Part shown: positions 61,208-64,000 of the stretch, piece after piece | Numbering within the stretch: the stretch's first letter is position 1 | Layout: every line of letters starts with the position of its first letter | NCBI RefSeq assembly: GCF_041022165.1 | Contig: NZ_CP163302.1 | Coordinates: 4,030,001 to 4,094,000 of the forward strand | From: Sinomonas sp. P10A9 | GTDB taxonomy: Bacteria > Actinomycetota > Actinomycetes > Actinomycetales > Micrococcaceae | Direction: 5' to 3' | Length of the DNA stretch: 64,000 bases | The notes under the pieces: generated by a model | Told to the model about the DNA's origin: nothing | Databases searched by the model: none | The model's input: only the letters and a program-made list of their open reading frames with translations | Position numbers and translations under genes: made by a program

Positions 61208-62386
61208 GTGACCGCGACGAAGGACTCCGACCAGCAGACAGGCGCCGGCAGCATCCCCGACCCGGTCCTGAGGTCGATCGGCTTCCTCTCCTTCTTCGAC
61301 CGCTTCGCCACTCCCCCGATGCTCGTGGTCCTGGCCAACCGCACCGATCTCACGCTCGCCGACGCCGTGGGCCTCGTGGCGTCCTACTCGCTCCTCTATG
61401 CGCTCGGGCAGCCGCTGTGGGGGTTCATCAGCGACCGGTTCGGCCGCGTGACAGTGCTCCGCACGGCACTCGTGGGGCTGCTGCTGGCCGCCATCGCCAG
61501 CACCCTGTTCAGCGCGCACGTGCCACTGCTCATCGCGAGGTCGGCGGCCGGGCTCATGGCCGGGTGCCTCTACCCCACGCTCCTGACCATCATCGGCGAC
61601 ACGCGCACGGGCATCGAACGCGCCCGCGGACTCTCCGACCTGCAGATCTATTCGGCGCTCGGCACCACGGTCGCGACCCTCGCCGCGGGCGCTCTCGCGG
61701 CGTTCACGGACTGGCGGGTGGTGTTCGGGCTCCCCGCACTCGGGTGCCTCGCGCTGCTGCTCTTCCTCCGGCGGGCGCATGACGGCGCCGCTCACCGCCG
61801 CGGGCGCGTTGACGTCCGCGCCGCGTTCTCGGGCGCCGCGCTCGGAGTCTACGGTGTGGCGGTCCTCGAGGGCGCCGTGCTCATGGGCATCCTGACCTAC
61901 GTCGTTCCGGCCCTGCAGCACGCGGACGTGCCCATCGCCGTCGCGGGGATCCTCGCGTCGGGGTACGGGGTGGGCGTGATCCTGGGGGCGCGGCTCATGC
62001 GGCGTCTGGTGCAGCGGTTCACGCGGACGCAGCTTATGGGGATCGGCGGGGTGGTGCTGCTGGTCGGGTATGTGGCGTCGTCGATCGCGCAGAACCCGGC
62101 GACGATCACTGTCACCGCCGTCCTCGTGGGTGCTTCGAACGCGGTGCTGCACTCATCGGTGCAGGGCTGGGCCACCGAGGTCGCGCCGAAGGCCCGTGCT
62201 ACGGCGGTCTCGCTGTTCGCGTGCTCGCTCTTCTTGGGCAGCTCGGCGGGCACGTTCCTCACGGCGGGGCTCGCCGGCAATGGGGAGTACGGCGCCATCT
62301 TCCTCCTCGGCCTCGTAGCGACGGCGTTGCTCACGGCGGTCGTGACGCTCGGGCACGCGACGTGGGAACGGCGCCGGGTGTCGTGA
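61208..62386 (+). CDS. MFS transporter
   Basis: 392 residues from GTG 61208 (VTATKDSDQQTGAGSI), 12 helices. Motif A GFISDRFGRVTVLRTALVGL and the second-half equivalent are present; compact loops and length suggest an efflux or small-metabolite porter (UMF/DHA1-like). Probably regulated by the divergent LysR. Its stop lies in the first of two 19-bp direct repeats. Confidence 0.85.
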   Translation: MTATKDSDQQTGAGSIPDPVLRSIGFLSFFDRFATPPMLVVLANRTDLTLADAVGLVASYSLLYALGQPLWGFISDRFGRVTVLRTALVGLLLAAIASTLFSAHVPLLIARSAAGLMAGCLYPTLLTIIGDTRTGIERARGLSDLQIYSALGTTVATLAAGALAAFTDWRVVFGLPALGCLALLLFLRRAHDGAAHRRGRVDVRAAFSGAALGVYGVAVLEGAVLMGILTYVVPALQHADVPIAVAGILASGYGVGVILGARLMRRLVQRFTRTQLMGIGGVVLLVGYVASSIAQNPATITVTAVLVGASNAVLHSSVQGWATEVAPKARATAVSLFACSLFLGSSAGTFLTAGLAGNGEYGAIFLLGLVATALLTAVVTLGHATWERRRVS

Positions 62387-62472: not shown

Positions 62473-62500
62473 CTGACGTTCACCCCGGGCTGGTTATGAT
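62473..62500 (+). promoter_or_regulatory. promoter of the segregation operon
   Basis: CTGACG (62473-62478), 16 bp, TATGAT (62495-62500), the best -10 hexamer in the region. Transcription would begin near 62507, at the first base of the repeat-rich leader, so proteins bound to the repeats would repress or sense it. Confidence 0.6.
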
Positions 62501-62506
62501 CAGCTG

Positions 62507-62635
62507 TTGACCGCGACTGGACCACACGTGGGCCGCTTGCGGTCAATCCATGTCCAGCGCCCGCACGCGGCCACGACGTGACCAAAAGTGGCCCGATCTG
62601 GGTCGTCATTGGCCACCTGTGACCACAATGTGGCC
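62507..62635. repeat. centromere-like array of GTGRCC half-sites
   Basis: Two copies of the block GGCCAC - 2 or 3 bp - GTGACC - 4 or 5 bp - GTGGCC lie at 62569-62593 and 62611-62635, 42 bp apart. A third, variant site GGACCAC-AC-GTGGGCC lies at 62519-62534, inside perfect arms TTGACCGC (62507-62514) and GCGGTCAA (62539-62546). That gives eight related half-sites in 117 bp of untranslated leader. This is how parC/alpS-type partition sites look: operator and centromere in one. Confidence 0.7.
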
Positions 62636-62690
62636 GCTGGAATGCACGGGCATTGAGCAGATGCCCGTCGAACGATGAGAGGAGATGCAT

Positions 62691-63104
62691 ATGGCCAGTC
62701 CCCGAGAAGGGACGGGAGCGCCGGCGAAGCCGCAGCCCCACCGTTTCCGGGTGAGCGTCCCGGCGGCCGACGAGGCCGTCGTGGCGTGGATGGAGCTGCA
62801 GGACAATCCGTCATTGTCGGTGAGAATGCTGATCCGCGAGAGCATCGAGCGCCTCGGCTACATCGACGTCGTCAACCGCCCTGTGGCACAGCTCCCGGGG
62901 GGAGTCCGTTCTGGGGGCTCCTCCCCAGAGGACACCGCGGGTTCTCCTGCCCGGGGGTCAGCTGCGCCCCAACCCAGGAAGGCCCCCGACCAGAGGCCCT
63001 GGCCGGCGCAGGAGGCCGAGCCGCCGCGCGAGTCCAGTTCCGAACCTGAGCCGCCTTCTGCAGGACCGATGGACATCAACGACATCTTCGCGATGACGCG
63101 GTAA
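62691..63104 (+). CDS. small adaptor-like protein upstream of the actin-like gene
   Basis: 137 residues from ATG 62691, 6 bp after GAGAGGAG; ATG 62685 is too close to that site. Residues 15-65 look like a compact DNA-binding fold of ribbon-helix-helix type: a strand HRFRVSVPA, then helices ADEAVVAWMELQ and LSVRMLIRESIERLGYIDVV. The rest is disordered and Pro/Glu/Ser-rich, ending in a short conserved-looking tail MDINDIFAMTR that could contact the filament. Size, order and tail match the ParR/AlpA adaptors, which bind the centromere and the actin-like ATPase. The assignment rests on context and fold pattern. Confidence 0.65.
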   Translation: MASPREGTGAPAKPQPHRFRVSVPAADEAVVAWMELQDNPSLSVRMLIRESIERLGYIDVVNRPVAQLPGGVRSGGSSPEDTAGSPARGSAAPQPRKAPDQRPWPAQEAEPPRESSSEPEPPSAGPMDINDIFAMTR

Positions 63105-63162
63105 GCCCGCGCAGCACAAGCAACACAGTCTCCACCGAATTTCACCGAAGGGAATCATCCAC

Positions 63163-64000
63163 GTGACCATCTCAATCAATCTCACCGGCGGGATCGACGT
63201 CGGCAACGGCTATGTCAAGGGAATCATCCGCGGGGAGCGCGCTTCCGGCGCGGCGAGGATCGACGAGATCGATCTGCCCAGCGCCGTCGCGCTCGTCACC
63301 AGGTCCAACGCGCTTCCGGACGCGGACCACGAGGCCATGGCCAAGCTGGATGGCGACTTCTACAACGAACTCGATGTGAGCTTCGACTCGCCTCTGGTCG
63401 GGGACAAGTACCGGCGCCTCTTCGGTACCCGGGCGCTGAGCGCCCAGGGCGCCTTCGACGAATTCGACGTCGTGGGCCGCCGCAGCAAGGCCGCGCAGGA
63501 GCTGAGCAAGGTCCTCGTCATGGGCGCCTTCGCGGCGAAAGCGCTGCGGGACTACGTCCGCGAGCACCGTGCGCTCCCGCCGGCCGATGAGACGCTCAGC
63601 GTGCAGGGTCGCGTCGCCCTGGCCCTTCCGATCAACGAGTACCTCACCCACCGCACGAGCTACGCGACAGAGTTCACGACCGGCACGCACACGGTCACGG
63701 TGCACAACTTCGATACCCCGGTCTCAGTCAAGCTCCACTTCGTCGACGTGCAGGTCATCCCCGAGGGCGCCTCGGCGCAGTACGCGATCACGGCCAAGGG
63801 TGAACCGCTCATGGACGCGATGCTGAAGGACCTCCGCCGCCGGGGCGTGGCGCTCGAGGGCATCACCTCCGCGGACGTCCTGGCCGCCCAGCACACGGTT
63901 GGCATTGACATCGGCGAGGGCACCGTGAACTTCCCGGTCTTCACCGCGGGCAGGTTCAACGCCGATGCCTCCACCACGTACGGCAAGGGCTACGGCTCGG
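63163..64000 (+). CDS. actin-like ATPase (ParM/Alp type), runs off the window
   Basis: At least 279 residues from GTG 63163 (VTISINLTGGIDVGNGYVKG); the right edge truncates it. Phosphate-1 motif IDVGNGYVKG (Asp12, Gly14, Lys19) and phosphate-2 motif VGIDIGEGTVNFPVF near 245-259 define the actin/ParM fold. The middle part LSVQGRVALALPINEYLTHR fits the ParM/StbA family strands. An adjacent adaptor gene and repeat array make plasmid or phage DNA segregation the likely role. The missing C-terminus would hold the adenosine motif. Confidence 0.82.
   Translation, partial: MTISINLTGGIDVGNGYVKGIIRGERASGAARIDEIDLPSAVALVTRSNALPDADHEAMAKLDGDFYNELDVSFDSPLVGDKYRRLFGTRALSAQGAFDEFDVVGRRSKAAQELSKVLVMGAFAAKALRDYVREHRALPPADETLSVQGRVALALPINEYLTHRTSYATEFTTGTHTVTVHNFDTPVSVKLHFVDVQVIPEGASAQYAITAKGEPLMDAMLKDLRRRGVALEGITSADVLAAQHTVGIDIGEGTVNFPVFTAGRFNADASTTYGKGYGS

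Follow-up and report, generated by a model that had tools for sequence, protein, structure and literature searches.

Plasmids use actin-filament machines to share themselves out at cell division. Functional ParM proteins are also encoded on chromosomes, in the cParMR/cParCMR systems, where their role is given as unknown (Ali et al. 2025, PMC12270681). As that paper presents them, these systems pair a ParM-type ATPase with a ParR-type adapter, in one case together with a parC bound by its ParR; the examples come from Firmicutes and one Burkholderia replicon, and within Desulfitobacterium the synteny is conserved; some hosts are without plasmids, and ParA and ParB genes are also present. The words Actinobacteria and Actinomycet are absent from its main text. 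In a literature search that left subscription journals mostly uncovered, no paper joined ParM, actin-like and chromosomal with Arthrobacter, and among the matches listed for ParM and Sinomonas none looked related by title. In actinobacteria, the AlpAC/alpS system of prophage CGP3 of Corynebacterium glutamicum has its adapter gene first, its ATPase gene second and repeats in the promoter region, with alpS described as 24 repeats of the motif TTAAnnG and AlpA as having no homology to ParR (PMC4446434, PMC5539076). The same sources name Gordonia pGKT2 as carrying AlpAC homologues in the same order, and a Gordonia sp. KTR9 protein is listed as an AlpC homologue (PMC4446434), taken here to be the pGKT2 match discussed below. 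The FcmB/FcmC pair of Nostoc punctiforme is described as motor gene first, membrane-bound and with a role in cell shape (PMC12645912).

Here we examine a module at 62473-64494 of a 64,000-nucleotide stretch of DNA (the window), which represents positions 4030001-4094000 of a single 4,289,660-bp (4.29 Mb) contig of Sinomonas sp. P10A9. A promoter-like site, a leader array, an adapter gene and a ParM/Alp gene follow one another in the order first read from the window. The module is probably an intact, solo, adapter-first type II partition cassette on the main chromosome, of plasmid-type descent and kept by selection, and our best reading makes it a relative, with the adapter first as in AlpAC, of the ParMR systems reported on chromosomes in 2025. 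Like cParMR as characterized there, it combines a ParM-type ATPase and a putative ParR-type adapter on a chromosome; unlike the examples given, it is actinobacterial, has its adapter first and half-sites at 10/11 bp, and occupies unrelated sites in related species (PMC12270681). With AlpAC of CGP3 as published, and with Gordonia pGKT2, it shares the adapter upstream of the ATPase, as the original prediction had it, and with AlpAC also the leader repeats, but no prophage is recognised here, the motif is TGRCC-like and not TTAAnnG, and the likeness is one of arrangement. It would resemble FcmB/FcmC, as described, as a plasmid-derived partition pair that became chromosomal and was retained, and differs from that motor-first, membrane-bound, shape-related pair in being adapter-first (PMC12645912). 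The locus bears on what, if anything, actin-type partition systems contribute to chromosomes: it is small, its array is kept, and close relatives offer both filled and vacant sites, which makes it amenable to genetic tests.

A sigma-70-like promoter is predicted on the forward strand at 62473..62500 from its consensus match (CTGACG-16-TATGAT; 1 observed against 0.2 expected in shuffles). The centromere-like leader array, on the same strand, comprises ten TGRCC-like half-sites in two blocks, one at 62497..62533 (half-sites at 62497, 62508, 62518 and 62529; steps of 11, 10 and 11) and one at 62579..62635 (62579, 62589, 62599, 62610, 62620 and 62631; steps of 10, 10, 11, 10 and 11), with an in-block spacing of 10 or 11 bp, about one helical turn, and a step of 50 between the blocks (62529 to 62579). 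The GGCCAC/GTGACC/GTGGCC blocks noticed earlier are present and resolve into this finer order. Phasing was assessed with a weight matrix built from the S. albida and S. mesophila sites alone, the window leader not being used for building. At cut-offs of 2.5 and 3.5 the 300-bp window leader gave 9 pairs at 10/11 bp and a chain of 6, and neither value was matched in any of 5000 dinucleotide shuffles or of 825 other 300-bp windows of the 64-kb stretch, both strands; a stricter cut-off of 4 leaves the leader itself just 7 pairs and cuts its chain to 3. The repeats are likewise found in seven related loci, where 10/11-bp steps persist despite spacer divergence. Two blocks stepped at 10/11 bp are seen in the S. 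albida (L011) and S. mesophila (L012) leaders, L012 skipping some sites and having additional ones, and five Arthrobacter-group leaders (L013-L016, L079) have one block of four or five half-sites, with one step of 12 in L079 and a sparser second block in L016; this listing across loci is descriptive, the search expression having been devised after viewing the sequences. Motif-free autocorrelation is weak, being headed by steps 10 and 11 in the window leader and by another step in 4 of the 7 other loci (L013, L016, L079, and L012 with 21 leading). Two strains of the species differ at four leader positions, one of them inside the array, in a spacer and not a half-site. The strict array pattern (62610-62635) matched the genome at its own locus alone, the backwards-pattern control also giving 1 match, and a second array elsewhere as a trans target was set aside on that result, which covers the strict pattern only. 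By its sequence, this is a centromere-type repeat array at the operon promoter, as in type II (ParMRC-like) systems.

The ParR/AlpA-like adapter gene (62691..63104, forward strand) encodes a conserved N-terminal domain, a variable Pro/Ser-rich linker and a conserved tail, MDINDIFAMTR. An alternative start at 62685 is possible, and the spacing to AGGAG and the homologues favour 62691. The conserved region in Sinomonas and Arthrobacter reads, with small variations, KPQPHRFRVSVPAADEAV..WM.LQDNPSLS.RMLIRESIER.GY.DV.NRPV.QLP. Alignment bears out the conserved-looking tail noted before: (D/E)(V/I)NDIF is present in 8/8 cassette adapters aligned, including those of the window and the sister strain, and is looser in two plasmid adapters (DFEDLF). 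The small protein had also been called RHH-like, and a low-confidence model (pLDDT 57.1), in which an extended stretch is followed by helices at 24-38 and 42-55 and the tail has a short helix at 129-134, fits a ribbon-helix-helix fold but does not prove it; profile families gave no significant match, RHH families included (DUF3780 alone, sub-threshold), Foldseek with this model gave no match, and a PDB sequence search gave nothing significant.

The ParM/Alp actin-like ATPase gene (63163..64000 and on to 64494, forward strand; GTG start, 443 aa) is cut by the end of the window, which holds 279 of its whole codons. Pfam (ALP_N, 1.4e-10), PHROG (691, partition protein, 4.9e-22) and Foldseek agree with the actin-fold, ParM/Alp assignment made at the outset. 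Ranks 1-22 of the Foldseek matches are ParM/Alp proteins, the ParM-like cyanobacterial CorM (rank 5) and the archaeal homologue Ta0583, and PilM, DnaK and FtsA rank below 22; the MreB/FtsA/Hsp70 affiliation named as the outcome that would contradict the assignment was not seen in profiles or Foldseek, the latter on a low-confidence model (pLDDT 58.5) whose best matches reach TM-scores of just 0.30-0.46 by query length. A closed beta-barrel subdomain is typical of ParM, and the confidence of this model is below what its recognition would need. A PDB sequence search with the ATPase gave nothing significant. Both predicted phosphate motifs are there: what we take to be phosphate 1, GIDVGNGYVKG, is invariant in nine aligned sequences (two of them identical), and what we take to be phosphate 2, GIDIGEGTVNF, is almost invariant in the same alignment. 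A strong hairpin (-39.9 kcal/mol) lies 3' of the gene, with no intrinsic terminator with a T-run found there and no match in an Rfam search. The motif names follow in part the usage in PMC4446434.

If R1 and AlpAC are a guide, the adapter would bind the helically phased half-sites of its own leader, probably as a dimer stack, its C-terminal tail would couple the array DNA to ATP-driven ParM/Alp filaments, and its presence on the promoter leader should keep the operon repressed as well. The chromosomal cargo would most likely be the module's own locus. Since parS sites indicate that Sinomonas sp. P10A9 presumably has ParABS, the cassette would replace nothing.

The DNA right of about 62.4 kb had been assigned to a plasmid, prophage or integrated element, or else the whole window to a separate replicon, and neither proposal held: the window is part of the 4,289,660-bp contig, which carries chromosomal-type parS sites, and ordinary genes continue rightward. 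No Rep, relaxase, integrase or phage gene was recognised by eye, from chosen ORF starts, in about 8 kb of leftward and 50 kb of rightward DNA, including the sequence beyond 64000 (a Pfam scan covered a few neighbouring genes, the remaining names being given by eye). On the left, the 3' part of an MFS transporter gene (61235..62386, forward strand) is open to its stop codon and ends just before the module, which forms an insert of about 2.2 kb between this gene and a 5'-truncated cupin-like gene (L002:9515-9934, equivalent to 64514-64933, just past the window), its right end lying at most about 150 bp past the ATPase stop. The cupin-like ORF is fused at the insertion to a scrap of sequence similar to the 3' end of an MFS gene, and what is left of it has no Pfam match; the sister strain has the identical insertion, with the cupin-like gene about 110 bp shorter still. 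Further right are a membrane-protein-like and then an old-yellow-enzyme-like gene (by eye from translations). The site is empty in all six Sinomonas relatives whose genomes strongly match both flanks (L061-L066), in which the MFS and right-hand genes lie inside one 3.5-4.9 kb stretch where module sequence is unmatched; the cupin gene is missing in L061, an extra short gene precedes it in L063-L065, and the order differs in L066. The right-hand genes adjoin the left-hand one in these six module-free genomes, which speaks against plasmid, prophage or integrated-element DNA on the right. Other genomes of the genus are uninformative on the site, as they have no strong match to the left flank. The module is located on the main chromosome outside any plasmid or prophage, as are cParMR systems, and the G192 copy is likewise chromosomal.

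Three relatives match the MFS scrap at scores of 36.5-37.5 and three others at 24.5-30.5, the window's own left-hand copy reaching only 22.5 (chance maximum 19.5 in 3000); the scrap is therefore not a recent duplicate of that copy, and a target-site duplication at the right border was rejected on the same scores. A phage origin was dismissed, a phage collection giving no match at E 1e-5 and the one viral contig match being 50% identical, as was tRNA-associated integration, six related loci showing no tRNA.

Module relatives occupy other sites in S. albida, S. mesophila and Arthrobacter, and a Sinomonas sp. ASV486 scaffold encodes the same ATPase with 0 replacements, genome G058 being rated the same species. 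The S. albida module lies between a CAAX-protease gene and an ABC-transporter-like gene, a site that is empty in all eight genomes searched (flanks about 740-1130 bp apart, no module match between), two of which, Sinomonas sp. P10A9 and S. mesophila, hold a module elsewhere; no empty site is claimed for S. mesophila, where the left flank has no good match. The four Arthrobacter-group loci with long flanks (L013, L014, L016, L079; L015 is too short for flank comparison) resemble one another over no more than about -1.34 to +1.34 kb around the ATPase start, and their unit borders show no sharp ends or inverted repeats by eye. A small divergent ORF (MSAERKASRHAQEFRWHQ..., HTH-like by eye) lies about 0.9-1.3 kb upstream of the ATPase in L014, L016 and L079 and belongs to this conserved Arthrobacter unit, the window's cassette being unlike it in that stretch. 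Genes around orphan copies appear ordinary by eye, with no Rep, relaxase or phage gene recognised. The G192 cassette (L079) has what looks by eye like a dnaK-like gene about 1.5 kb away, and a transposase gene with an integrase core lies some kilobases off on the opposite side.

Cassette matches occur in 3/14 Sinomonas genomes (4/15 including the same-species genome), and relatives in 11/395 Micrococcaceae genomes; an order-level search found 4/396, three of them already among the 11. Six of the 11 hold orphan cassettes (G000, G058, G001, G011, G192, G240), and five (G017, G165, G303, G403, G411) have flanking genes in common over kilobases, as a larger element; at this frequency, with five of the 11 in the larger element, the cassette is no general chromosome machine. 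The module is about 183 kb from the nearest parS in Sinomonas sp. P10A9 and about 371 kb in G192, and, by synteny only, the Arthrobacter Soil762 copy (L016) maps about 40 kb away when projected onto G192 and that of S. albida about 1.0 Mb away when projected onto P10A9 (G000), the L013 piece having no match for such placement. Three of these four orphan copies lie within 0.4 Mb of parS, which is suggestive of a position near the origin, and the idea of an origin-linked centromere was dropped, four copies being too few for such a claim.

Four actinobacterial plasmid proteins share 50-55% identity with the ATPase over about 90% of its length, from Streptomyces sp. NBC_01454, Rhodococcus sp. DN22, R. 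fascians GS01 and Gordonia pGKT2 (51%); the remaining relatives, among the best 40 of 67 plasmid records, come mostly from lactobacilli and bacilli at 25-32% identity, and the adapter matched one plasmid record (56% identity over 40% of the adapter). The Streptomyces, Rhodococcus and Gordonia loci likewise have a small gene followed by the ATPase gene; they differ in being plasmid-borne, with a ParA gene within about 5 kb upstream in 3/4. The cassette of the Streptomyces plasmid (L057, NZ_CP109461.1) stands beside integrase, ATP-binding and TniQ-family genes, presumably a Tn7-like neighbourhood. In a 17-row ATPase tree whose root is not known, all eight orphan rows fall on one side of a branch (support 90/97, the 90 being below the usual 95; 88% of 200 bootstrap trees), the opposite side holding three plasmid rows, those of plasmid loci of this kind, together with the element rows; one long-branch warning applies to rows that are not in the orphan group. 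The cassette would descend from plasmid-type partition systems through a lineage found only outside plasmid records, its sites varying between species and selection retaining it. More tentatively, the Micrococcaceae may harbour a lineage of solo actin-type cassettes that relocates without a recombinase of its own and is selected, its benefit being that of a second, movable, filament-driven centromere or of an anti-plasmid shield.

A rival proposal is that the module serves plasmid exclusion, with the chromosomal array, adapter and filament protein mis-partitioning or tethering incoming plasmids of the same centromere as an incompatibility defence. Work by Dam and Gerdes in 1994 reportedly concerned parC of R1, a centromere of a class that can express incompatibility, and patchy presence at changing sites fits an accessory trait. 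We nevertheless consider this unlikely, as no plasmid matches closely, the best plasmid ATPase standing at 55% and the single adapter record covering 40%.

The ATPase genes of two strains sharing the insertion are separated by 12 synonymous and 0 non-synonymous changes, a pattern with a P of 1e-7 to 6e-7 if neutral, by which the ATPase looks maintained. Their adapters differ by 7 synonymous changes and 4 replacements (P 0.01-0.02 if neutral), all four replacements outside the conserved domain and tail. In the same comparison, three neighbour genes gave 15/6, 8/2 and 4/0, making the ATPase about as constrained as ordinary genes, and the two-strain constraint may be common to ordinary neighbours too. 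Between loci, ATPase dN/dS is 0.06-0.18 by YN00 (Arthrobacter pairs) and about 0.11-0.20 by NG86 (pairs involving Sinomonas), and that of the adapter is looser, 0.59-1.09 (YN00, Arthrobacter pairs), YN00 values having been obtained for no ATPase pair with Sinomonas and for part of the adapter pairs. A neutral relic, in which an integrated plasmid lost all but its partition cassette and the remainder is decaying, would agree with the plasmid-borne relatives elsewhere and with the messy right border, where a diverged MFS 3'-end scrap is fused to a truncated cupin-like gene. It is nonetheless improbable, because the ATPase kept its protein sequence while the adjoining cupin-like gene lost a further 110 bp or so in one strain, the same small unit persists at several unrelated sites, and the orphan copies cluster apart from the three plasmid copies that the tree includes.

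A repurposed cytoskeleton without a DNA task, with a role in shape or envelope as for FcmBC of filamentous cyanobacteria, is very unlikely: a chromosomal ParM-like protein with a cell-shape function is on record (PMC12645912) and CorM appears among the Foldseek matches, but phased half-sites occur in 8/8 loci examined, which a DNA-free role would not require, and presence is patchy within one genus. That the module is the partition locus of a plasmid, prophage or integrated element making up the right-hand DNA is hardly credible, since the insert extends no more than about 150 bp past the ATPase stop and the right-hand genes neighbour the left-hand gene in module-free relatives, even though the sister branch does sit in a larger shared stretch in Micrococcaceae, with SSB, RecJ-like and nuclease genes. 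This sister ATPase branch (L081, L082, L083, L084 and L068) was scanned at one locus, L081, which carries SSB, RecJ-like DHH, nuclease (SNase) and HD genes. L081 (G303) and L082 (G411), from separate genomes, share 99.97% identity across 19 kb, a likeness suggestive of recent transfer of the element.
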